Below, one piece after another: positions 6,557-30,333 of a stretch of 64,000 nt of DNA. The stretch's first letter is position 1; every line of letters begins with the position of its first letter. Source of the stretch: Actinomycetes bacterium (GTDB lineage: Bacteria > Actinomycetota > Thermoleophilia > RBG-16-64-13); the NCBI GenBank assembly GCA_024637095.1, contig JAGXFV010000034.1, positions 124,001 through 188,000 of the forward strand. Reading direction: 5' to 3'. Position numbers and translations under genes: made by a program. The notes under the pieces were generated by a model that was given only the letters and a program-made list of their open reading frames with translations, searched no databases and was not told where the DNA came from.

Positions 6557-6630
6557 CGGGACGTGGCGCAGCCTGGTAGCGCACCTGCTTTGGGAGCAGG
6601 GGGTCGCCGGTTCAAATCCGGCCGTCCCGA
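6557..6630 (+). tRNA. tRNA-Pro (TGG anticodon)
   Basis: The cloverleaf has acceptor CGGGACG pairing with CGTCCCG, anticodon stem CCTGC/GCAGG around TTTGGGA with anticodon TGG at 6591-6593, and a T-arm with GGTTCAAATCC. The discriminator is A6630. CCA is not encoded. Confidence 0.95.
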
Positions 6631-6650
6631 CTGTACGGAGAGCTTGACGG

Positions 6651-6723
6651 GCGGGTGTAGCTCAGCTGGTAGAGCAACGGCCTTCCAAGCCGTTGGTCGC
6701 GGGTTCGAATCCCGTCGCCCGCT
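6651..6723 (+). tRNA. tRNA-Gly (TCC anticodon)
   Basis: Acceptor GCGGGTG pairs with CGCCCGC. The anticodon stem ACGGC/GCCGT encloses CTTCCAA with anticodon TCC at 6684-6686. The T-loop is GGGTTCGAATCCC. CCA is not encoded; the next bases are CCT. Confidence 0.95.
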
Positions 6724-6751
6724 CCTCGGCCGCTTGCGCGGAACGGTAGAG

Positions 6752-6787
6752 GCGCCTGTAGCTCAGTTGGCGCCTGTAGCTCAGTTG
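6752..6787 (+). repeat. 18-bp tandem duplication of the tRNA-Arg 5' end
   Basis: GCGCCTGTAGCTCAGTTG occurs at 6752-6769 and directly again at 6770-6787. The second copy is the real 5' end of tRNA-Arg (acceptor strand, D-stem and start of the D-loop). The first copy is an extra half-arm just upstream. Confidence 0.9.
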
Positions 6788-6843
6788 GATAGAGCAGCGG
6801 ACTTCTAATCCGCGGGCCGGGGGTTCGAATCCTCCCAGGCGCG
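6770..6843 (+). tRNA. tRNA-Arg (TCT anticodon)
   Basis: Acceptor GCGCCTG pairs with CAGGCGC (6836-6842). Anticodon stem GCGGA/TCCGC encloses CTTCTAA with anticodon TCT at 6804-6806. The T-arm contains GGGTTCGAATCC. It reads the rare AGA/AGG codons. CCA is not encoded. A duplicate of its first 18 bases sits immediately upstream and could compete for pairing with the 3' acceptor strand in the precursor. Confidence 0.93.
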
Positions 6844-6878
6844 CCTCAGGCCGCAGAAGCAAGCGCTGTGGCCGACGT

Positions 6879-6953
6879 GGTGAACGTAGCTCAGTTTGGT
6901 AGAGCTCCGGGTTGTGGTCCCGGTGGTCGCGGGTTCGAGTCCCGTCGTTCACC
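6879..6953 (+). tRNA. tRNA-His (GTG anticodon)
   Basis: Acceptor GTGAACG pairs with CGTTCAC. The extra 5' base G6879 (G-1) faces discriminator C6953, the identity pair of tRNA-His. Anticodon GTG is at 6914-6916 inside stem CCGGG/CCCGG. CCA is not encoded. Confidence 0.95.
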
Positions 6954-6968
6954 CCTCAAAGGGTTAGG

Positions 6969-7003
6969 CCCTTCGTGACGTCCGAGTGGGACGGGACGAA
7001 GGG
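6969..7003 (+). terminator. Strong stem-loop between tRNA-His and tRNA-Leu
   Basis: CCCTTCGT (6969-6976) pairs with ACGAAGGG (6996-7003). After a 2-nt internal loop, CGTCC (6979-6983) pairs with GGACG (6989-6993) around a 5-nt loop. A T-rich but interrupted tail (TCATTTCATTTT) follows. It could be a partial intrinsic terminator or a processing element within the tRNA transcript. Confidence 0.5.
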
Positions 7004-7022
7004 TCATTTCATTTTGCGACGC

Positions 7023-7104
7023 GCGGGTGTGGCGGAACTGGCAGACGCGCCAGGTTTAGGTCCTGGTGCCGCGAGGCGTGGAGGTTCGAGTCCTCTCACC
7101 CGCA
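7023..7104 (+). tRNA. tRNA-Leu (TAG anticodon)
   Basis: Acceptor GCGGGTG pairs with CACCCGC. Anticodon TAG at 7057-7059 lies inside CCAGG/CCTGG. A long variable arm follows the anticodon stem, as in class II tRNAs. CCA is not encoded. It ends 52 nt before the trigger factor gene. Confidence 0.95.
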
Positions 7105-10376: not shown

Positions 10377-12866
10377 GTGACCGTGGCCGACAACGAGCGG
10401 TCGCTGCCGCTCCTCGCGGCACGCGATCTCATCCTCTTCCCCAAAATGCTCATTCCCATCTTTGTGGGACGGGAGAAGTCCGTGCGCGCCCTGGAACGGG
10501 CGCATCAGGCCGGGTCCTCGCTGATCCTCGCCACTCAGTTGACCTCGGTCGAGGAGCCGGGGGAGGCGGACATCGCGTCGGTCGGCACTTTGGCCAAGGT
10601 GGTGCAGTTCTTCCGGCTGACGGACGGCACGGTGAAGGCACTGCTCGAAGGACAGGGCCGAGTGGCCATCGAGGGCCTCTCGATGAGCGAACCCCATCTG
10701 GAGGCCAACTACCGGCCTCTCGAGATGCGCCGCGCCGGCAACTGGTCGCGGGTGCGCGCTCTGATGGAAGCGGTCAGCCGCGAATTCCACGTCTACGTCA
10801 CCCAGTCGCCGGAACTGCCGGAAGAGGCCGAGACCATCCTCGAAGACGTCTCTGACCCCGGCGATCTGGTGGACATCGTCGCCGCCAACCTCCTGATTGC
10901 CGCGGACCGCAAGCAGTCTCTGCTGGAGGGTGAGGACCCCGAGCAGCGGTTGATGACCTCCCTCGAGGTGCTGATGCAGGAGAACGAACTCCTCGCCATC
11001 GAGCACGACATCGCCGACCGAGTCCACGACAACCTGGAGCGTCACCAGCGCAAGCTCTTTCTACGCGAGCGCATCCGGCTCATGCAGGAAGAACTGGGCG
11101 AGGAAGAGGGCGAGGAAGGGGAGCAGGGGCGCTATCTGAAGCAGCTCGAGCAGAAGCCCAATCTATCCACCGGCGCGCGCGCCGCGCTCGAGAAGGAGAT
11201 TCGCCGGCTGGAGGATATGCCTCCCTTTTCGGCGGAGATCGGCGTGGCCCAGACCTACCTGGACAACGTCTTCGCGCTTCCCTGGGGGGAGATGTCGGGG
11301 GCGGAGGCCCCCAACGTGGCTCACGTGGCCAAGGTGCTGGACGACACCCACTATGGGCTTTCCGACGTCAAGGACCGGATCGTGGAGTATTTGGCGGTGG
11401 CGCAGCTTCGCCAGGGCGTGCCGCCCAAGACGGTGCTCTGCTTCGTGGGTCCGCCCGGTGTGGGGAAAACCTCGATCTCTCTGGCCATTGCCGAAGGCCT
11501 GCGGCGGCCGCTCCAGCGCATCAGCCTGGGCGGGGTGCGGGACGAGGCCGAGATTCGCGGCCACAGGAGGACTTACGTCGGGGCCATGCCCGGCCGCATC
11601 CTGGACGCCCTGAAGCGGGCCGCCGTCGACGATCCCATCATCCTGCTGGACGAGCTCGACAAGATGGAGTCCGACTGGCGAGGGAACCCTGCTGCCGCCC
11701 TAATGGAGGTGCTGGACCCCGTCCAGAACCACGCCTTCCGCGACACTTATCTGGATCTCGAGTACGACCTCTCGCACGTGCTCTTCCTGGCCACGGCCAA
11801 CTATGAAGAGGACATTCCCGAGACGCTGCACGACCGCCTGGAGATCATCCGCATCTCGGGCTACACCTCCCGAGAAAAGGAGCAGATCGCCCGGCGGCAC
11901 CTGGTGCCCAAGACCGCCGAAGAGAGCGGCATGGCGGAGGTGGGAGATGTGTTCACCCGTCAGGCCCTGCGCGATCTGATCGAGGATTACACCCGCGAGC
12001 CGGGGGTGCGCGAGCTCAACCGGCTGGCGGGCAAGGTCTACCGCAAGCTGGCGCGGGACCGCGTGGAAGGCAAGAACCGGGCGCACACCCGCATAGGCCC
12101 GGGGGACCTGGAACGCTACCTGGGCGCACCGCCCTATCTGCGGGCCCGCCTGGCCGAGGAGTTGGGGTGGGGAGTGAGCACCGGCCTGGCCTACACCGGC
12201 GCAGGCGGGGACATCCTCAGGATCGAGACGGCGATCACGCCCGGTAAGGGCGACTTTCACATCACCGGTCAGCTGGGCGAGGTCATGCAGGAGAGCGTCA
12301 CCGCGGCGTGGGGCTATCTCAAGACGGCGATCGGCCGGGATGAAACCCTGACCGGTATTTGGCGGAGGTCGCCCGGACGGGCCCGCCTGCTCGAGCAGTA
12401 CTTGTCCGAGCAGCCCGGCGGCTCTGCCGGTGAGGAGACCGGGAGCGATGACGGCAGCGGGACCGCCGAGCCGACGTGTGTGCCGCCGGTCCCCCCGGAT
12501 TACGAGCTGCTCGCGGCGCTCGAGATTCGGCTGCACCTGCCCGAGGGAGCGGTGCCCAAGGAGGGTCCCTCGGCCGGTATCGCCGTGGCGGCATCGCTGC
12601 TCTCGGCGCTCACCGAGACTCCGCTGCTGCCGAGGGTGGCGCTCTCGGGCGAGATCACGCTGACCGGCCACGTGCTCGCCGTGGGGGGACTCAAGGAGAA
12701 GCTGCTGGCCGCGCGCCGGGAAGGCGTGCGCAAGGTGATTCTGCCGGAAGACGTCAAAGGGCAGGTCAGAGAACTGCCCGCGGAGATCAGGAAAGGGCTC
12801 GAGATCGTGTACGTCCGGAGCTTCATCGAAGTGCTCCCGCAGATCTTCCCGGAAGAGAGGAGCTGA
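10377..12866 (+). CDS. lon: ATP-dependent Lon protease
   Basis: 829 residues. The N-terminal substrate-binding (LAN) domain spans about 1-210, followed by a coiled coil. The AAA+ domain has Walker A GPPGVGKT at 358-365. The C-terminal S16 protease domain has catalytic Ser732 in EGPSAG and Lys775 in GLKEKLLAA, spaced 43 residues apart as in the family. A Gly/Ser/Glu-rich insert of about 25 residues (around 680-705) separates the small domain from the protease core. It degrades damaged and regulatory proteins. GTG 10377 is the first start; GTG 10383 is equally possible. Confidence 0.95.
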   Translation: MTVADNERSLPLLAARDLILFPKMLIPIFVGREKSVRALERAHQAGSSLILATQLTSVEEPGEADIASVGTLAKVVQFFRLTDGTVKALLEGQGRVAIEGLSMSEPHLEANYRPLEMRRAGNWSRVRALMEAVSREFHVYVTQSPELPEEAETILEDVSDPGDLVDIVAANLLIAADRKQSLLEGEDPEQRLMTSLEVLMQENELLAIEHDIADRVHDNLERHQRKLFLRERIRLMQEELGEEEGEEGEQGRYLKQLEQKPNLSTGARAALEKEIRRLEDMPPFSAEIGVAQTYLDNVFALPWGEMSGAEAPNVAHVAKVLDDTHYGLSDVKDRIVEYLAVAQLRQGVPPKTVLCFVGPPGVGKTSISLAIAEGLRRPLQRISLGGVRDEAEIRGHRRTYVGAMPGRILDALKRAAVDDPIILLDELDKMESDWRGNPAAALMEVLDPVQNHAFRDTYLDLEYDLSHVLFLATANYEEDIPETLHDRLEIIRISGYTSREKEQIARRHLVPKTAEESGMAEVGDVFTRQALRDLIEDYTREPGVRELNRLAGKVYRKLARDRVEGKNRAHTRIGPGDLERYLGAPPYLRARLAEELGWGVSTGLAYTGAGGDILRIETAITPGKGDFHITGQLGEVMQESVTAAWGYLKTAIGRDETLTGIWRRSPGRARLLEQYLSEQPGGSAGEETGSDDGSGTAEPTCVPPVPPDYELLAALEIRLHLPEGAVPKEGPSAGIAVAASLLSALTETPLLPRVALSGEITLTGHVLAVGGLKEKLLAARREGVRKVILPEDVKGQVRELPAEIRKGLEIVYVRSFIEVLPQIFPEERS

Positions 12867-21503: not shown

Positions 21504-23435
21504 TTGTATCTCGAACCCACAAGAAAGCAGCGCTCCCCTTCAGACGATCCCTCCTTGGGCATGCGCCTGGGGATCCTCGCTGTGGTCGTGCTGCTCGCCT
21601 TTAGCGTCCTGGGATTCCGGCTGTGGTTTCTGCAGATGATCTCGGGCGACCAATACACCGTGATGGCGGATAACAACCGGCTGCGCACGGTCACCATAGA
21701 GGCTCCGCGCGGGGTCGTCTACGATCGGGGAGGTCCCGACGAGGGCAGCGCGCTGGTCGAGAACCGCGCCGGCCTCAGCGTGGGCATCCTTCCCATGGAC
21801 CTCCGCAACGAGGAGCAGGTGGTGCCTCGGCTGGCTTCGATCTTGGAAGTGCCGGAGGATGAGCTGTGGCAGAAGATCGAGACCGCGAAAGAAGACCCAT
21901 ACGTGGTCACGGTACTCAAAGAGGACGTCTCGGAAGACGACGTGGTCGCCTATCTGGAGGAGCACCGGGTGGAGTTTCCCGGAGTGCGGATCGAGAAGGC
22001 CTACCTGCGGGATTATCCACGGGACGCATTCGGCACTCACCTGTTGGGCTACGTAGGGGAGATCTCCGAAGAGGAGCTGCAGGGCGAAAAGTTCCGCCCG
22101 CTGAAGGCGGGGGCCAAGGTGGGCAAGGATGGGATCGAACACACCTACGACAACTTCCTGCGCGGAGTCGACGGCACCAGCACGGTGGAAGTCGACTCCG
22201 CGGGGCGGCCGAAGCGCGAGGTATCGATGAGCCCCCCTCTGCCGGGAAAGAATCTGTGGCTAACCATAGACTCCAGTCTTCAGGACGCCGCCGAGCGCGG
22301 CATCGCTGAGGGGATCGAGCTCGCCCAGAGCCAGGGCTTTGCGGGCGCGGACGCCGGCGTCGTCGTCGCGCTGGATCCGCGCAGCGGCGAGGTGCTGGCC
22401 ATGGCCTCCTATCCAGACTATCCGCTCTCGCTCTGGGTTGGTGGCATGGGCGACCAGGAGTACGCGACGCTGACCGCAGAGGACTCCAACAATCCGCTGT
22501 TCGACCGGGCGCTCAAAGGCCTCTATCCCGCGGCGTCGACCTTCAAGCCCTTCGTGGCCCTTGCCGCTCTGGAGAACGATGTCATCACGCCGGATACGGT
22601 TTTCACCGACCCCGGCTTCTATCAGATTGGCCAGCAGCGTTGGAAATGCTGGGAAGAGGACGGTCACGGCGAAGTGAACCTGGTCGAAGCGATCATGGAG
22701 TCCTGCGACACCTACTTCTACAATGTGGGCCACAAGTTCTATAAGAGGGAAGGCCCGGTCATGCAGGATTTCGTGCGCCAGTTCGGCTTTGGCAGCCCCA
22801 CCGGCATCGACCTGCCCGACGAGTACTTCGGCCGCGTGCCCGACAAGGATTGGAAGAAGGAGAAGGGCAAGACGGCGGAGGATAAGGCCTGGAAGCCCGG
22901 AGACGATGTAAACCTGTCCATCGGCCAGGGTGACCTGTTGACCACCCCGCTGCAGCTGGCCACCGGTTTCGCCGCAATCGCCAACGCCTCTACCGAGGAC
23001 GCCAACGGCCGAGTGAAGCTCAACCTGCTCGTGCCGAGGCTGGCGCTCAAGGTCACGGACAACGCGGGCAACGTGGAGCATGAGGTGGAAACCGAGAAGC
23101 GCGCCGAAATCGAGGTCGATGCCGACGACCTCCGCGCGGTCAAGCGCGGGTTGGAGTTGGTCACCTCGGAGGTGGGGGGAACTGCCAGGGCGGCCTTTGA
23201 GGGCTTTCCCGTGGCGGTGGCCGGCAAGACCGGCACCGCGGAGAAGAAGCCGGAAGACGATTACGCCTGGTTCATGGGCTACGCGCCCGCAGACCAGCCT
23301 GAGATCTTGGTGGTCGCCCTCATTGAAGAGGGCGGTCACGGCAGTTCGGTGGCGGCTCCGGTCGTGCGCCGGGTGCTGGAGCGGTACTTCCAGCAGGAGC
23401 CGAGCGTGCTTAAGCAGCTCGAGGTGAGCGAGTGA
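21504..23435 (+). CDS. mrdA: Penicillin-binding protein 2, elongation transpeptidase
   Basis: 643 residues. An N-terminal membrane anchor (about 25-45), the PBP dimerisation domain with APRGVVYDRGG, and a transpeptidase domain are visible. The active-site motifs are S345TFK, S400CD and K575TG. It cross-links sidewall peptidoglycan in partnership with RodA, whose gene follows with a 4-nt GTGA overlap. The TTG start at 21504 has only a weak, distant CGGAGAA box. Confidence 0.93.
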   Translation: MYLEPTRKQRSPSDDPSLGMRLGILAVVVLLAFSVLGFRLWFLQMISGDQYTVMADNNRLRTVTIEAPRGVVYDRGGPDEGSALVENRAGLSVGILPMDLRNEEQVVPRLASILEVPEDELWQKIETAKEDPYVVTVLKEDVSEDDVVAYLEEHRVEFPGVRIEKAYLRDYPRDAFGTHLLGYVGEISEEELQGEKFRPLKAGAKVGKDGIEHTYDNFLRGVDGTSTVEVDSAGRPKREVSMSPPLPGKNLWLTIDSSLQDAAERGIAEGIELAQSQGFAGADAGVVVALDPRSGEVLAMASYPDYPLSLWVGGMGDQEYATLTAEDSNNPLFDRALKGLYPAASTFKPFVALAALENDVITPDTVFTDPGFYQIGQQRWKCWEEDGHGEVNLVEAIMESCDTYFYNVGHKFYKREGPVMQDFVRQFGFGSPTGIDLPDEYFGRVPDKDWKKEKGKTAEDKAWKPGDDVNLSIGQGDLLTTPLQLATGFAAIANASTEDANGRVKLNLLVPRLALKVTDNAGNVEHEVETEKRAEIEVDADDLRAVKRGLELVTSEVGGTARAAFEGFPVAVAGKTGTAEKKPEDDYAWFMGYAPADQPEILVVALIEEGGHGSSVAAPVVRRVLERYFQQEPSVLKQLEVSE

Positions 23436-24649
23436 GCGTGCTGCAGAGGTCTTCGGAACGCCCCTTTGGCGGCTTTCACCTGGGCGCCTACCTCAAGAAC
23501 GTGGATTGGCTGCTTTTCTTCGTGACCATGGCCCTGGCCGGGTTTGGCCTCGCGATGATCTACTCGGCGAGCTACCAGGATTCCAACATAGCCCGGCCTA
23601 CTGCCTACGTCGACGCCCAGCTGGTCGGCCTGGTTCTGGGGTTCTTGGGGATGGTGGTGCTCAGTCTCTTCGACTTCGCCTGGCTGACGAGCTGGCGGCG
23701 CTACCTCTACGGTTTCACGATCGCGCTGCTGCTGGTCACCTTGGTGATCGGCGAGGAGCGCATGGGCGCCCGCCGCTGGATCGCGCTGTCCTTCATAGAC
23801 CTGCAGTCCTCGGAACTGGCCAAACTGCTCATCATCGCTTCCTTCGGGGCCTTCCTGGCCGAGGGCGTCGAGTTGCGCGGTCGTTTTCGTTTCGTACTCC
23901 AGGCGACGGCCTATGTGGGCGTGCCCGCGGCACTGGTGTTCGTGCAGCCGGATCTGGGCACCTCGCTCGTGTTCCTGGTGATCTACTTCACCATGCTTCT
24001 AGTTTGGGGGGCGCGCTGGAGCCATCTCGCCGTGGTGGTGGGTACCCTGCTCGCGGCGGTCGTTGCGGTGCTGCGGGTGCTCCCGGCCACGTTCGACGTG
24101 CACCTGCTCAAGCCGTACCAGATCGAGCGGCTGATGGTCTTCGTCGATCCGCAGCTGGACGCCGGCGACGCGGGTTATCAGCTCGCTCAGAGCAAGATCG
24201 CCGTGGCCAGCGGAATGGTCACCGGAAAGGGCTTCATGGAGGGTACCCAGACGCACCTCAATTTCCTGCCCGCCCACCACACCGACTTCATCTTCTCGGT
24301 AGTTGGGGAGGAGTTGGGGTTCGTTGGTGCCGCTCTCTTGCTCGGTCTCTATTTGCTGCTACTCTGGCGGGCATTCCGAATTGCCGCCGAGTCCAAGAAC
24401 CTCTACGGTTCTCTGTTGGCTGCCGGGGTCATCGGCGTGTTGCTGTTCCAGGTTTTCGTCAACGTGGGTATGACGATCGGCATCATGCCCATCACCGGTC
24501 TCCCCCTGCCTTTCATCAGCTTCGGCAGCAGTTCCCTGGTGACGTTCCTCCTTGCTTCGGGGCTGCTGCAGAGCGTGCACATCCACTCTCGCGTCGCCCT
24601 TTACGGTGGCCGCGTAAAAGGAGAGCCATATGGCCAGCTTGCCACTTAG
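23432..24649 (+). CDS. rodA: RodA peptidoglycan glycosyltransferase (SEDS family)
   Basis: 405 residues with about ten membrane spans. SEDS hallmarks are visible: LQSSELAKLLIIASFGAFLA, FVQPDLGTSLVFLV, HHTDFIFSVVGEELGFVG and ITGLPLPFISFGSSSLV. It polymerises lipid II during elongation. It is the second SEDS gene of the window (ftsW lies in the division cluster), and its place after PBP2 identifies it as RodA. The 3' end overlaps the next gene by 20 nt. Confidence 0.93.
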   Translation: MSVLQRSSERPFGGFHLGAYLKNVDWLLFFVTMALAGFGLAMIYSASYQDSNIARPTAYVDAQLVGLVLGFLGMVVLSLFDFAWLTSWRRYLYGFTIALLLVTLVIGEERMGARRWIALSFIDLQSSELAKLLIIASFGAFLAEGVELRGRFRFVLQATAYVGVPAALVFVQPDLGTSLVFLVIYFTMLLVWGARWSHLAVVVGTLLAAVVAVLRVLPATFDVHLLKPYQIERLMVFVDPQLDAGDAGYQLAQSKIAVASGMVTGKGFMEGTQTHLNFLPAHHTDFIFSVVGEELGFVGAALLLGLYLLLLWRAFRIAAESKNLYGSLLAAGVIGVLLFQVFVNVGMTIGIMPITGLPLPFISFGSSSLVTFLLASGLLQSVHIHSRVALYGGRVKGEPYGQLAT

Positions 24650-25595
24650 CCCCAGCAAGATCTGGGATGCGTGGAAGGACGTAACCGCCGCGACCGATGC
24701 CCAGGCCGAGCTCATTCTGACCGGGGATGTGGAACTCGTCGAACGAGCACGAGTGGAGTTGGCACCCGCGGGGGGAGCCGGAGCGCCGGGCGGTCACAGC
24801 CGCATATGGAACGGCAGTGCGGAGGGGCTGGCCCAACTGAGCCTCGACGAGGGCGATACCCTGCTGGTGTTCGCGCAACCGGGGGACGAGGATGCCTGGG
24901 CCAGAGCGCTCAAGAAGCGTAAGCCCCCGGCTGCGGTGGTCGCGGTGGACGACGGCCCTGCGGCCGGCCACGACGTCACTTGGTACCGCAAGAACGTTTA
25001 CCGCGTTTCCTTCGCCGACAATCCACGAGGGTGGGAGAAGTTGGCCGAGGCCATCGTGGACGCGAACGGAGAGCGTTTCATCTCCCTGGCCCGTCGCTAC
25101 CCACGGCTGCGCAAAGTCGCCGCCCACCGGGTGATCGAAGACACCTCTCGCCAGAACGGCGTGGTGGGCGTCGCCTTCTTCGTGCCGGGCACAGATATGC
25201 CGGTGATGATGCTCAACCAGATCAAGATGGTGCTCTCTCTGGCGGTGATGCACGGGGAGGAGCTCACTCGCGACCGGGCCGTCGAGATTCTGGGGGTCGT
25301 TGGTGCCGGGCTGGGGTTGCGCACCGTCGCTCGAGAGGCTCTCGGTTTCATACCCGGCCCCGGTTGGGTGCTGAAGGGAGCCTTGGGCTACACCGGGACT
25401 CGGGCCATGGGCGAGGCGGCGCTGCGTTACTTCCGCGAAGACGACGACCGCTCGCCCGGCCGTTTCGCCAAGTTGCTGGAGAAGGCCCGTGAGAGCGCAC
25501 CGGGCGTGACCGAGACTGCCGGCGAGGCCGTGGCGTCCTTCGGCGAAACGGCGACGGAAAAGGTCTTCGGCCTGATCAAACGCTTCCGCTCGTGA
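24630..25595 (+). CDS. DUF697-type protein of unknown function
   Basis: 321 residues. The N-terminal 150 residues look like a degenerate P-loop or Rossmann-like domain without a Walker A motif. The C-terminal half (about 160-285) resembles DUF697, with RVIEDTSRQNGVVGVAFFVPG, a hydrophobic helix pair around MLNQIKMVLSLAVMHG, and a Gly/Ala-rich helix hairpin near 210-265. DUF697 is often joined to GTPase domains; here the GTPase part is absent or has decayed. ATG 24630 follows AAAGGAGA. It overlaps rodA by 20 nt and the radical SAM gene by 4 nt, so the three are translationally linked. The role is unknown. Confidence 0.75.
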   Translation: MASLPLSPSKIWDAWKDVTAATDAQAELILTGDVELVERARVELAPAGGAGAPGGHSRIWNGSAEGLAQLSLDEGDTLLVFAQPGDEDAWARALKKRKPPAAVVAVDDGPAAGHDVTWYRKNVYRVSFADNPRGWEKLAEAIVDANGERFISLARRYPRLRKVAAHRVIEDTSRQNGVVGVAFFVPGTDMPVMMLNQIKMVLSLAVMHGEELTRDRAVEILGVVGAGLGLRTVAREALGFIPGPGWVLKGALGYTGTRAMGEAALRYFREDDDRSPGRFAKLLEKARESAPGVTETAGEAVASFGETATEKVFGLIKRFRS

Positions 25596-28213
25596 ATACG
25601 GGCGGGGAGCGGCACGCCGCCGAGCTCCGCCGCCGATACGAGCAGTTGGTGGGGCGGGTCGCGAATCCGGCACGGCTGACCGGCGGAGAGATCGGCGCGG
25701 GCAGTGGGTTCTCCGGCGACGAGACCGAGCTGCGTGTGGCGCTTGGCTTTCCCGATACCTACGAGATAGGCATCGCCAATCAGGCCATGCAGATTCTCTA
25801 TCACGAGGCGGGCAGAACGCCCGGGGTCACGGTTGAGCGGGTCTATCTGCCCTGGGTAGACGTCATCGCCGAGCTGCGCGCCGAGGGTCTGCCGCTGGTT
25901 ACCCTGGAGAGCTGGACGCCGGTCCGCCAGGCGCACCTGCTGGGTCTCACCCTGCAGCACGAACTCAACTTCAGCAACGTGCTCGAGCTTCTCGATCTTG
26001 CGGAGGTCCCCCTGCGGGCGGCCGAACGAGGCGAGGGCGATCCCCTGGTGCTCGGGGGAGGGCCGGCGATGGCCAACTTCCTCCCGCTGACCGCCTTCTT
26101 CGACGCCTTCGTGGTGGGCGACGGGGAGCTCATCTTCCCCGACGTGCTGGCCGCGGAGCGCGAGGCGCGCTCGCGCGGGGCGAGCCGCCGGGACAGGCGC
26201 GACTCCCTTGCCCGTATTCCCGGGGTTTACGTTCCCGGCATCTCTCGTAAGGTGATCCGCCGGGTGGTGTCCGACCTCGCCCTTGCCGACTACCCGGAGC
26301 AGTGTCTGGTGCCTTTGACTGCGGGGGTGCACGACCGTGCCTGGGTCGAGGTGATGCGCGGCTGCACCCGGGGTTGCCGCTATTGCCAAGCGGGGATGTG
26401 GTATCGCCCGGTCAGAGAGCGTCCTGCCCCCATGGTGATCAGTATGGCCGCGGGCGCCGCCCGGGCCACCGGCCATGAGGAGGTGAGCCTCGCCTCACTT
26501 TCGACCACCGACTACAGCGCCCTCGCTCCGGTCATCGCCGCGCTCGAAAAGGAAGAACCCGACCTACGGGTGAATCTGCCTTCCCTCCGGGTCGATTCGG
26601 CGGCGGTGCGCCTCGCTCACGTCACCTCGGAGAGAGGCTCCTCGGTCACCCTGGCCCCGGAGGCGGGCAGCCAGCGCATGCGCGACGTCATCAACAAGAA
26701 CGTCAGCGAGGCGGATATCGTCGACGCGGTCGGGCAGGCCTTTTCGCTGGGTTACACCACCATCAAGCTGTATTTCATGATCGGCCTGCCCGAGGAGCGG
26801 GACGAGGACGTCGAGGCAATCGTGGATCTGGTCCGGCGGCTGCAGGCTCTCGGTCGCGAGCACCTGGGCCCGCGGGTGGGACGGCTGCAGGTACATGTCA
26901 GCGTCACCAATTTCATACCCAAGCCCTTCACCCCGTTTCAATGGGCGGGGATGGCTGCGCCCGAGGTGCTGAAGCAGCGGCAGGAGTTGCTGCGACGCGG
27001 TCTGCGCGGAAAGGGACTCAAGCTGTCCCTGCACGACATCCCTGGGAGCTATCTGGAGGCCGCCCTGGCGCGGGGGGGCGAGGAGATCGCCGGCGTGATC
27101 GAGGGCGCCTGGCGTCGGGGCGCCCGCTTCGACTCCTGGACTGAGCAGTTCGATATGCGCGCGTGGGAGGACGCTTTCACCGCCGCACCGGAGGCTCACG
27201 TCGCCGCCGCGAAACCGGCGTCTCGCTCAGGGTGGGGCGAAGCCGGCTCATCCTCTGCCGCCCGGGAAGCAAGCGCGCAGGCCCGGGCCACCCGCGCCCT
27301 GGAGCGGAACGAGACCCTGCCCTGGGATCTGATCGAAGGCGCGGTGGACCGCGGTTTTCTCTGGGCGGAGTGGCAGCGGGCGTTGCGGGCCGAGACCACC
27401 GCCGATTGCCGCGGGGGGGAGTGCGGCGCCTGCGGCGCCTGCGGCGCGGGAGTGGAGATGGTGGTGGGGACAAGGGCGATGGCGCCCGCGGCGGCCACCG
27501 AGGTGCCGACACCTCAGTCGGCGGCGCCGGCTGCCTCACGGGACGGCACCCTCGCTACTTGGTACAGTCTTTCGTTCGCTGTGGACGGCCGCGCGCGCTT
27601 TCTGGGCCACCTGGATTCCGCGGAAGTCCTCCGCCGGGCGGTGCGCCGGGCGGGCGGACGTTTGGCGCTCTCGGCAGGCCTTCGGCCCAAGCCCTTGTTG
27701 GGGCTGGCGCTTCCCCGGGCCGTGGGGGTCTCCAGCCGGGGAGACCTTGCTGAGTTCGCGCTGGCGGAACAGCCAGGCAGCGACTTCACAGACCGCCTGA
27801 GCGCCGCTTTACCCGAGGGTTTTCGCCTGCTGGAACTCACCCGGGCGGGTGAACGTCCCCGGCTGGCCGCGAGGGTCGAAGGAGCGGATTACCTCGTCGG
27901 CCTGGCACAGCTGACGGACCCCGAGGCAGCGCGACTTAGAGAGGCGGCCGAAAGGTATAGTACGATGGAGTCCATTCCCATCGAACGGATTCGAGAGAAG
28001 GGCAAACGGCAGGTCGATGTGCGCGAGTATGCCGATCAGCCGGTGGTTCAGGAACATGAAGACCGCCGGCTGCTCTCCTTTTCCGTACGAGTGACGCCGT
28101 GGGGCACCGCCCGGCCCGAGGAGGTCGTGCGGGCGCTGCAGGAACTGGCGGGACTTCAATTGGAGATCAGTTTTATGGAACGAGTGCGAATTCAGCTACG
28201 AGAGGATTCCTGA
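25592..28213 (+). CDS. B12-binding-like radical SAM protein fused to DUF2344
   Basis: 873 residues. An N-terminal cobalamin-binding-like region (about 1-230) precedes a radical SAM barrel whose Fe-S motif is C258xxxC262xxC265 (CTRGCRYC). A low-complexity Ala/Pro/Ser linker (about 530-645) contains a cysteine cluster C606/C611/C614/C617, suggesting a second metal site. The C-terminal part from about 650 is the DUF2344 (TIGR03936) domain. The first part resembles TIGR03960. This fused pair commonly sits next to RNase E/G and L21/L27 genes, as here, and may modify RNA or a ribosomal factor, but its substrate is not established. The GTG start overlaps the DUF697 gene. Confidence 0.85.
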   Translation: MNTGGERHAAELRRRYEQLVGRVANPARLTGGEIGAGSGFSGDETELRVALGFPDTYEIGIANQAMQILYHEAGRTPGVTVERVYLPWVDVIAELRAEGLPLVTLESWTPVRQAHLLGLTLQHELNFSNVLELLDLAEVPLRAAERGEGDPLVLGGGPAMANFLPLTAFFDAFVVGDGELIFPDVLAAEREARSRGASRRDRRDSLARIPGVYVPGISRKVIRRVVSDLALADYPEQCLVPLTAGVHDRAWVEVMRGCTRGCRYCQAGMWYRPVRERPAPMVISMAAGAARATGHEEVSLASLSTTDYSALAPVIAALEKEEPDLRVNLPSLRVDSAAVRLAHVTSERGSSVTLAPEAGSQRMRDVINKNVSEADIVDAVGQAFSLGYTTIKLYFMIGLPEERDEDVEAIVDLVRRLQALGREHLGPRVGRLQVHVSVTNFIPKPFTPFQWAGMAAPEVLKQRQELLRRGLRGKGLKLSLHDIPGSYLEAALARGGEEIAGVIEGAWRRGARFDSWTEQFDMRAWEDAFTAAPEAHVAAAKPASRSGWGEAGSSSAAREASAQARATRALERNETLPWDLIEGAVDRGFLWAEWQRALRAETTADCRGGECGACGACGAGVEMVVGTRAMAPAAATEVPTPQSAAPAASRDGTLATWYSLSFAVDGRARFLGHLDSAEVLRRAVRRAGGRLALSAGLRPKPLLGLALPRAVGVSSRGDLAEFALAEQPGSDFTDRLSAALPEGFRLLELTRAGERPRLAARVEGADYLVGLAQLTDPEAARLREAAERYSTMESIPIERIREKGKRQVDVREYADQPVVQEHEDRRLLSFSVRVTPWGTARPEEVVRALQELAGLQLEISFMERVRIQLREDS

Positions 28214-28220
28214 GCCAACC

Positions 28221-29894
28221 GTGAAGCAACTCATCATTACTACGGATCCGCGGGAAACCCGCGTTGCCCTCATGGAGGACGGAAGGCTCGCCGAGCTCTA
28301 CGGCGAGCGCACCGGGGAAGGTTCCCTGGTGGGAAACGTGTACAAAGGCCGTGTGGAGAACGTCCTTGCGGGGATGGATGCCGCCTTCGTGGACATCGGC
28401 CTGGAGAGAAACGGGTTCCTCTACGTCGACGAGGTCCAGACGCCCGGCGACGAGGACGACCGCCCCCGGAAGATCACGCAACTGCTCAAGTCGGGGCAGG
28501 AGATCGTGGTGCAGGTCACCAAGGACCCCATGGGGACCAAAGGACCGCGGCTCACCACGCAAACGAGTATCGCCGGGCGATATCTGGTGTACGTGCCCGA
28601 TGGCACCCTATGCGGGGTTTCGCGCCGCCTGCCCGACGACGAGCGGCAGCGTCTGCGCAAGCTCTGCCACGAGATCAAACCCGCGGATGCGGGGGTCATC
28701 ATCCGCACCGTGGCCGAAGGCGTGAGCGAAAAGGCCATCACCGGGGACCTTCGCTATCTGGAGAAGGTCTGGGGAAGCGTGAAGCGGCGCCTGGAATCGC
28801 AGGGCGCGCCCTCGCTGGTCTACACGGAAGCCGACCTGCCGCTGCGCATAGTGCGCGACGTGTTCGACGAGGAGTTCACGCAGGTACTGGTGGACGAGGA
28901 GTCCGTGCAAAAGCGGATCGTGGGCTTTCTGCAGAACACCAATCCTGAGTTGATCGAGAGGGTGGAGCTCTACCAGGGATCCAAGGTGCTCTTCGAGACC
29001 TACGGCATCGACGAGGAAATCCGGAAGGCGATTCATCGCCGGGCCGATTTGCCGTCCGGAGGCTATCTGGTCTTCGACTACGCCGAGGCCATGACCGTGG
29101 TGGACGTCAACACCGGGCGTTACGTTGGCCGCAAGCAGCTCGAAGACACCATCACCAAGACCAACCTGGAGGCCTGCCGCGAGGTCGTCCGGCAGTTGCG
29201 GGTGCGGGACATCGGCGGGATCATCATCATCGACTTCATCGACATGGGGCGCCGGCAGAACCGCGAGCAGGTTTTGGAAACCCTCGAAGCCGAACTTGCC
29301 AAGGATCGCACCAAGACCTACGTGGTTGAGTTGTCACCGCTGGGACTGGTGGAGATGACCAGGCAGAACATCACCGACGGCTTGCGGGGCTTTCTCACCG
29401 AAACGTGCCCCACCTGTGATGGCGAGGGCGTGGTCTTGTCCGTGGACAGCTTGGCCATCGACGCCGAGCGCAAGCTGCGCGAGTTGGTCACCTCCTCCAC
29501 GGCGGAGGCCTTCCTAGTCGAGGTGAACGCCGAGGTGGCGCTGGTCCTCGAAGAGGACGGCAGGCTCGGGGCGCTCGAGGCGGACACCGGGAAGCACGTG
29601 GTGGCCGAGGGCGTCTCCTACTTGGAGCCGGGGGAGGTCCGTATGGCCGCCGAGGGCTCGCGGCAGGTTATCGACCGCGCGGCACTGCCGGTGGCTGAGG
29701 GTCAGGAGCTGACGCTGACCATTGAAGAGATCCACGTTTACAACAGGAGGGACGGTGTGGGGCGCGTCGACGGCTATCCCATTTGCGTTGCCGGAGCCGC
29801 AGATAGCGTGGGCAAGCGCGTCGAGGTCGTGGTGGAGCGGGCCGGCCGCAACTATGCCGACGCGAGACTTTCCGGGGTGGGCAGCCGCCGGTAG
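28221..29894 (+). CDS. rng: Ribonuclease E/G family endoribonuclease
   Basis: 557 residues. An S1 RNA-binding domain (about 35-115, with GNVYKGRVENVLAGMDAAFV) precedes the catalytic core. The metal-binding aspartates are D295 in VVDVNTGRYVG and D338 in IIIDFIDM, and the zinc link is C396PTC399. The C-terminal 145 residues are an extra domain beyond the minimal RNase G; no long disordered scaffold as in E. coli RNase E is seen. It processes rRNA and starts mRNA decay. GTG 28221 follows the radical SAM gene by 7 nt; ribosomal protein genes come next. Confidence 0.92.
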   Translation: MKQLIITTDPRETRVALMEDGRLAELYGERTGEGSLVGNVYKGRVENVLAGMDAAFVDIGLERNGFLYVDEVQTPGDEDDRPRKITQLLKSGQEIVVQVTKDPMGTKGPRLTTQTSIAGRYLVYVPDGTLCGVSRRLPDDERQRLRKLCHEIKPADAGVIIRTVAEGVSEKAITGDLRYLEKVWGSVKRRLESQGAPSLVYTEADLPLRIVRDVFDEEFTQVLVDEESVQKRIVGFLQNTNPELIERVELYQGSKVLFETYGIDEEIRKAIHRRADLPSGGYLVFDYAEAMTVVDVNTGRYVGRKQLEDTITKTNLEACREVVRQLRVRDIGGIIIIDFIDMGRRQNREQVLETLEAELAKDRTKTYVVELSPLGLVEMTRQNITDGLRGFLTETCPTCDGEGVVLSVDSLAIDAERKLRELVTSSTAEAFLVEVNAEVALVLEEDGRLGALEADTGKHVVAEGVSYLEPGEVRMAAEGSRQVIDRAALPVAEGQELTLTIEEIHVYNRRDGVGRVDGYPICVAGAADSVGKRVEVVVERAGRNYADARLSGVGSRR

Positions 29895-30042: not shown

Positions 30043-30333
30043 ATGTTCGCCGTTGTCAAGGTAGGTGGAAAGCAGTATCCGGTCAGGTCGGGCGCGAATC
30101 TGGTGGTCGACCGCCTCGAGATCGAACCGGGCAGTGTGGTTGAACTTCCTACGCTGCTGGTGTCCGACGATGAAGGCACGCGCCACGACGACGGCACGGT
30201 GACGGCGACGGTGGTCGAGCACTTCCGAGGACCCAAGATCTACATCCAGAAGCACAAGCCCAAGCGGGGCTACAAGAAGAAGATCGGCTTTCGGAGCGCG
30301 CTCACCCGGCTCTCCGTCAATGAGATTTCCTAG
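30043..30333 (+). CDS. rplU: 50S ribosomal protein L21
   Basis: 96 residues, slightly shorter than the usual 100-105. It shows [14 protein letters not shown], the [16 protein letters not shown] strand pair, and the basic signature [15 protein letters not shown] that binds 23S rRNA. The start has AGGAGAGAGG upstream. It is the first gene of the rplU-rpmA-obgE cluster. Confidence 0.96.

Follow-up and report, generated by a model that had tools for sequence, protein, structure and literature searches.

A radical SAM-DUF2344 fusion gene upstream of RNase E/G: a candidate RNA-modifying enzyme with a probably inactive TruA-like domain

The stretch of DNA analysed here (the window) comprises 64,000 nucleotides of an Actinomycetes bacterium (assembly GCA_024637095.1, contig JAGXFV010000034.1, positions 124,001 to 188,000), and carries at 25592..28213 a gene for an 873-residue protein in which a radical S-adenosylmethionine (SAM) enzyme is fused to a DUF2344 domain (TIGR03960 + TIGR03936); this gene and all other window features with coordinates below lie on the + strand. 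The domain set of the protein is PF19864, PF04055 and PF10105. It begins with a Radical_SAM_N2 domain (residues 66-215; 25787..26236; PF19864, 158.3 bits) that forms a cobalamin-domain-like Rossmann part, followed by the CxxxCxxC motif of the radical SAM cluster (26363..26386), whose cysteines C258, C262 and C265 were found by sequence and alignment exactly where a preliminary description of this locus had placed them. The radical SAM part ends in a second cysteine cluster, C606/C611/C614/C617, of the form DCR-x3-C-x2-CG-x-C (27407..27442), after which come a flexible linker (residues 618-652; 27443..27547; predicted local distance difference test score, pLDDT, below 50) and the DUF2344 domain (residues 656-869; 27557..28198), which profile and model comparison assign to a TruA/PUS10-like fold.

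The protein passes the cut-offs of TIGR03960 (568.6 bits, cut-off 462.3), TIGR03936 (125.1 bits, cut-off 71.9) and PF10105 (DUF2344; 104.6 bits, cut-off 23.8). By its sequence the gene is an ordinary full-length TIGR03960 + TIGR03936 fusion from a recognised but functionally uncharacterised family, which by record titles extends over Actinobacteria, Firmicutes, deltaproteobacterial groups, Chloroflexota, Nitrospirae and others. The family was surveyed in 80 named loci, the best by similarity to the query of at least 588 that were confirmed and hence not a random sample, and in a panel of 41 related genomes. DUF2344 is fused to the radical SAM gene in 40 of the 80 loci and adjacent to it in 37 (77 in all), and no difference at the sequence level was seen between the window gene and the family, whose fused form it has. 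Carriers of the fusion include four Geobacteraceae metagenome-assembled genomes (L037, L062, L073 and L106). In these counts L056 is entered as lacking DUF2344, though a separate scan shows it fused; the sequence of L102 stops 255 bases past the gene; and L032 is entered as separate owing to a break in frame. In L032, the closest named relative and a metagenome-assembled genome (MAG), DUF2344 is out of frame with the end of the radical SAM part (11300-12200), through either a frame break or an assembly error.

Within the genome panel, TIGR03960 was found in 27 genomes (25 above the cut-off, the matches in G015 and G039 being fragmented), and TIGR03936 was above its cut-off in the identical 27. 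The remaining 14 genomes (G018, G020, G021, G023, G025, G026, G028, G031, G033, G035, G036, G038, G040 and G014) gave no TIGR03960 match, and TIGR03936 matched three of them below the cut-off. Thirteen of these non-carriers are at least 94% complete and constitute every sampled genome of families f2, f4, f5 and f7. In those families the pair is thus dispensable. The other non-carrier, G014, is 64% complete. Among the control genomes, Synechococcus elongatus and Thermotoga maritima give matches to both families.

The relationship of DUF2344 to pseudouridine synthases was examined at the level of profiles and of predicted structure. An alignment (A2) of 49 DUF2344 sequences, one from the window and the rest from 48 of the 78 loci in which the domain was matched, was purged by hand of short rows, misplaced rows and near repeats. 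Its profile gave eight matches to PDB sequences up to E 10, every one of them TruA, Pus1 or Pus3; the best, 1vs3 (E 2.4e-4), was the only one significant by itself, the other seven lying at 0.76 to 1.1. Comparison by hhalign with a TruA profile from 17 genomes gave E 7.6e-6 (probability 84%), and a hhalign run of our own gave E 1.2e-4 (probability 55%), compared with 0.14 to 0.51 for eight controls that were reversed or unrelated. The public TIGR03936 model also matches the TruA gene of G025, below cut-off (E 7e-5). The domain was modelled with high confidence (pLDDT 95.5, predicted template modelling score 0.88), and the model contains the two-part pseudouridine-synthase fold. The first 25 Foldseek matches (best E 9.3e-9, TMq 0.53-0.67) comprise 21 entries titled as pseudouridine synthases and four chains of mitoribosome-assembly complexes (9hny, 6sga). 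VIA-align places PUS10 (Z 14.9, root-mean-square deviation (rmsd) 3.5, 205 residues aligned) and TruA (Z 14.4, rmsd 3.1, 194 aligned) in a tie. As modelled, then, DUF2344 has the TruA/PUS10 pseudouridine-synthase fold, common to it and TruA, Pus1, Pus3 and PUS10 over about 195-205 residues and accompanied by detectable sequence homology. This relationship is already in print in passing, in a single sentence that names DUF2344 and PseudoU_synth_1 as members of one Pfam clan (PMC7955657, from an excerpt). A literature search for TIGR03960, TIGR03936, PF19864 and PF10105 returned no match for the TIGR and PF names; DUF2344 matched PMC7955657 and a haematopoiesis review (PMC3884629), and a further search matched a paper on kaiA. 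In the search by family names no functional conclusion was found to have been drawn from the relationship.

In TruA-type synthases the catalytic aspartate is carried by an RTDxGV loop. In the hhalign register this residue aligns with A710 of the window protein (codon at 27719..27721), and none of the 49 sequences of A2 has an aspartate in that column, which holds proline in 28, alanine in 7, serine in 6, glycine in 5, and arginine, asparagine and threonine in one each. Therein DUF2344 differs from TruA, Pus1, Pus3 and PUS10, as it does in being fused to or located beside a radical SAM enzyme. Since the aligned column lacks aspartate throughout, the domain is probably dead as a pseudouridine synthase and kept as an RNA-binding module. 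An active pseudouridine synthase was rejected on the basis of this column together with the separate TruA that the genome encodes elsewhere. The aligned sequences also have a conserved G-F-N/H-P-H/R/K-P-K/R loop.

The complete set of cysteines in the protein is C238, C258, C262, C265, C606, C611, C614 and C617. The second cluster had been described as lying in a disordered linker; the cluster is present, but it precedes the linker, and in the seven aligned relatives with separate genes the radical SAM protein stops shortly past it, so the cluster belongs to the radical SAM portion. All four cysteines are invariant in 12 of 12 aligned sequences. Of 81 sequences (the window and the 80 loci), 79 match Cx2-5CxxC with another cysteine within 30 residues, and this extra cysteine is at +3 in 57 of them and at other positions in the remaining 22. 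The two that miss the pattern are L032, which holds the cluster in the other reading frame, and L071, a variant; with L032 included the cluster is kept in 80 of 81 and is a hallmark of the family. Loss of the cluster in close relatives, which had been named in advance as grounds for abandoning a role in RNA or ribosome modification, is therefore not what the relatives exhibit. Model confidence is low here, with a mean pLDDT of 64 over residues 601-610 and of 48 over 611-620. Three fixed cysteines and a movable fourth are compatible with a metal site, and the DCR-Cys4 cluster may be an auxiliary one (iron-sulfur or zinc) that ends the radical SAM part.

The radical SAM part has the layout of cobalamin-dependent enzymes, a Rossmann domain ahead of a barrel with CxxxCxxC. 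A search of PDB sequences with this part found MgmA as the best match (1.7e-12), and a GGP...GxGE stretch is common to the two proteins. When the full-length model, built with 12 sequences, was compared by VIA-align, MgmA was again at the top (Z 18.7, rmsd 3.5, 367 residues aligned, residues 48-502), ahead of CysS (16.7), MiaB (15.2), MtaB and, at 15.1, TsrM, the methylthiotransferases MiaB, MtaB and RimO being at Z 14-15. As predicted, the N-terminal portion of the protein belongs with radical SAM enzymes of the cobalamin type, MgmA being its nearest fold, and it may use cobalamin. MgmA depends on cobalamin to methylate a glutamine in a protein (PMC11796369, from an excerpt). The substrates of CysS, TsrM and TokK are small molecules. 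The window protein has the same Rossmann domain, barrel and CxxxCxxC as these enzymes, which are among its best fold matches, and to these features it adds the C-terminal cysteine cluster and the TruA-like domain.

Foldseek with the full model ranks differently: MiaB (the best match, E 2.5e-8) and TokK come first, and lipoyl synthases also match. Sulfur insertion into RNA, or methylthiolation, is one alternative, in which the Rossmann part would be without cobalamin and the second cluster would be a sulfur-donating auxiliary iron-sulfur cluster, as in MiaB-type enzymes or lipoyl synthase. The conservation of that cluster, the VIA-align scores of MiaB, MtaB and RimO, and the missing marker of B12 synthesis in 16 of the 27 carriers are all in its favour. 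MiaB-type enzymes, however, have three N-terminal cysteines for their auxiliary cluster and a C-terminal TRAM domain. The first cysteine of the window protein is residue 238, which leaves it without the N-terminal triad, and a Pfam scan of the protein gave no TRAM match; its overall radical SAM fold is nonetheless like that of MiaB and MtaB, which perform radical chemistry on tRNA, and of RimO, which acts on a ribosomal protein. A strict MiaB-type methylthiotransferase was rejected on account of the missing cysteines and TRAM domain. With the B12 enzyme MgmA as the top VIA-align match besides, sulfur chemistry in the wider sense seems to us rather unlikely.

A conserved feature of the surroundings is an RNase E/G gene (rng; 28221..29894; TIGR00757, 474.4 bits, cut-off 325.95) with a C-terminal TRAM domain (PF01938, 39.4 bits), whose GTG start at 28221 is 7 nt past the end of the radical SAM gene. 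In all 27 carrier genomes RNase E/G is found on the same strand no more than 1.6 kb downstream, as measured from profile match to profile match; in five of them the distance is 974 to 1528 bases, and an extra gene before RNase E/G is possible. It is the next gene, within 400 bp, in 50 of the 76 named loci with room. A rplU-like gene for ribosomal protein L21, named from sequence and position without a family-library scan, follows in the window at 30043..30333. Of the 53 loci that offer 8 kb of room, RNase E/G and rplU are both present in 19, RNase E/G alone in 19 and rplU alone in 3. The genes rplU and rpmA are near in 22 of the 53. In the three Chloroflexota loci scanned, a gene for a SpoU-family RNA methylase follows DUF2344 (L068:12538-13239, L078:12448-13080 and L099:12408-13076; we take these three to be Chloroflexota).

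Two further explanations were weighed. The enzyme might alter a protein, either a ribosomal protein or RNase E/G, with the TruA-like domain serving as a binder of ribosomal particles or a scaffold. That the nearest fold, MgmA, acts on a protein is consistent with this, as are the place of RimO in the same fold group, the nearness of rplU and rpmA, and the four mitoribosome-assembly chains among the fold matches of DUF2344. Enzymes of the pseudouridine-synthase fold, however, are known to target RNA, RNase E/G is linked to the gene without rplU in 19 of the 53 loci, and the SpoU methylase is linked to it in three Chloroflexota; we regard protein modification as improbable. In the other explanation the context is a housekeeping operon (mre, ribosomal proteins) with no bearing on function, and the product of the enzyme would be a small molecule or a cofactor. 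It would suit the surroundings in the window, where mre, PBP2, rodA, rplU, rpmA, obgE and proB genes are found, and the small-molecule substrates of the fold-matched cobalamin radical SAM enzymes CysS, TokK and OxsB. Against it stand the TruA-like domain, which is part of the same protein or encoded next to it in 77 of 80 loci and co-occurs in 27 of 27 genomes, and the link to RNase E/G, which holds where rplU is not near; this explanation appears very improbable.

The reading that we favour, and consider fairly probable, is an RNA-modifying radical SAM enzyme in which a dead TruA-type domain clamps RNA for a catalytic part of the cobalamin type. DUF2344, with its catalytic aspartate apparently lost, would bind RNA and offer one nucleotide to the radical SAM site; that site, being of the cobalamin type, would generate a 5'-deoxyadenosyl radical and modify the nucleotide at a carbon, methyl transfer from methylcobalamin being the likeliest route. 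That RNA is the target is the firmest element of this proposal and quite probable; of tRNA and rRNA, the probable kinds, tRNA has a slight edge, being the RNA on which TruA-type enzymes act. Cobalamin-dependent carbon methylation of tRNA or rRNA, guided by the dead TruA-like domain, is the tentative part, which we put forward as a possibility. The earlier suggestion of an RNA or ribosome modification, drawn from the neighbours alone, gains support from the TruA-like fold of DUF2344 and the conserved linkage to RNase E/G. RlmN and Cfr are radical SAM enzymes that methylate RNA carbons, with a different architecture and no cobalamin-type domain. We know of no described case of B12-dependent carbon methylation of RNA, and none was among the literature matches listed. 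The nucleoside N-330, an unidentified component of the 16S rRNA of Thermotoga and Haloferax, was considered as a product and set aside, as Haloferax volcanii is not among the control genomes that TIGR03960 or TIGR03936 matches, though TruA does match there. What is new here is the functional interpretation, the locus itself being an ordinary member of its family: with DUF2344 as a probably inactive TruA-type domain, a substrate that had been called unknown becomes the subject of a directly testable claim, and if cobalamin does act on RNA, vitamin B12 would be tied to translation in a new way.

Several observations weigh against the favoured reading. The loss of the catalytic aspartate hinges on the alignment register, and an acidic residue is present at position 718, eight after A710, in 49 of 49 sequences and at 721 in 41 of 49, both positions falling in the strand after the loop in the hhalign register. 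From Foldseek rank 26 onward, unrelated ferredoxin-like folds (ACT, Cas6, designed proteins) join the matches of the DUF2344 model at E 1e-5 to 1e-4 and TMq 0.2-0.28, with further pseudouridine synthases among them, and a common fold alone is no proof of RNA binding. The full-length model is of moderate confidence (mean pLDDT 77.6) and is weak around the radical SAM cysteines (54, 52, 69 and 53 in the blocks of residues 231-270). CbiF, the marker of B12 synthesis, scores above its cut-off in 11 of the 27 genomes that carry the enzyme and in 3 of the 14 that do not, counts that decide nothing on B12 use because B12 can be imported. One locus, L089 from a Thermotogaceae MAG, has no DUF2344 beside the radical SAM gene. 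As to context, neither RNase E/G nor rplU is near in 12 of the 53 loci, and 13 of the 14 related genomes that lack the enzyme nevertheless have RNase E/G. In two other Anaerolineae loci the next gene differs, being rplU in L075, while L103 continues with unscanned minus-strand open reading frames (ORFs); the SpoU link thus does not hold throughout that group.

Upstream of the fusion gene in the window are rodA (23432..24649; TIGR02210, 376.8 bits, cut-off 336.7) and a DUF697-like gene (24630..25595; PF05128, 26.8 bits, cut-off 27.7, E 5e-6). The ORF coordinates agree with the overlaps of 20 nt between these two and of 4 nt between the DUF697-like gene and the radical SAM gene, which starts at a GTG inside GTGA, and with the 7 nt before RNase E/G, all as previously described. 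The preliminary description had counted both genes into the unit, but rodA is within 400 bp in 9 of 74 loci (within 5 kb in 20 of 50) and a DUF697 gene directly precedes the radical SAM gene in 4 of 74, each of them actinobacterial to judge by record title or cluster. On these counts they are lineage-specific neighbours outside the conserved core and were dismissed as general functional partners. The names rodA, RNase and obgE are backed by family models, the other neighbours being named by reading of the sequence only.

Where RNase E/G is missing from the locus, the other neighbours include genes for a histidine kinase, a flavin reductase, IspD, an asparagine synthase, a Mfd-like helicase and YidC, and no RNA theme was seen among those that were scanned. 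In L089 (11755-12432) an IspD gene comes directly after the radical SAM gene. A search of the window for riboswitches (Rfam, gathering cut-offs) had as its sole matches five tRNAs, the genes of which are clustered at 6557-7104. The TRAM domain of the window RNase E/G, a domain absent from the radical SAM protein, occupies residues 492-550 (29694-29870); in six other loci tested, the RNase E/G has it in three (L032, L044 and L084) and lacks it in three (L036, L062 and L085).

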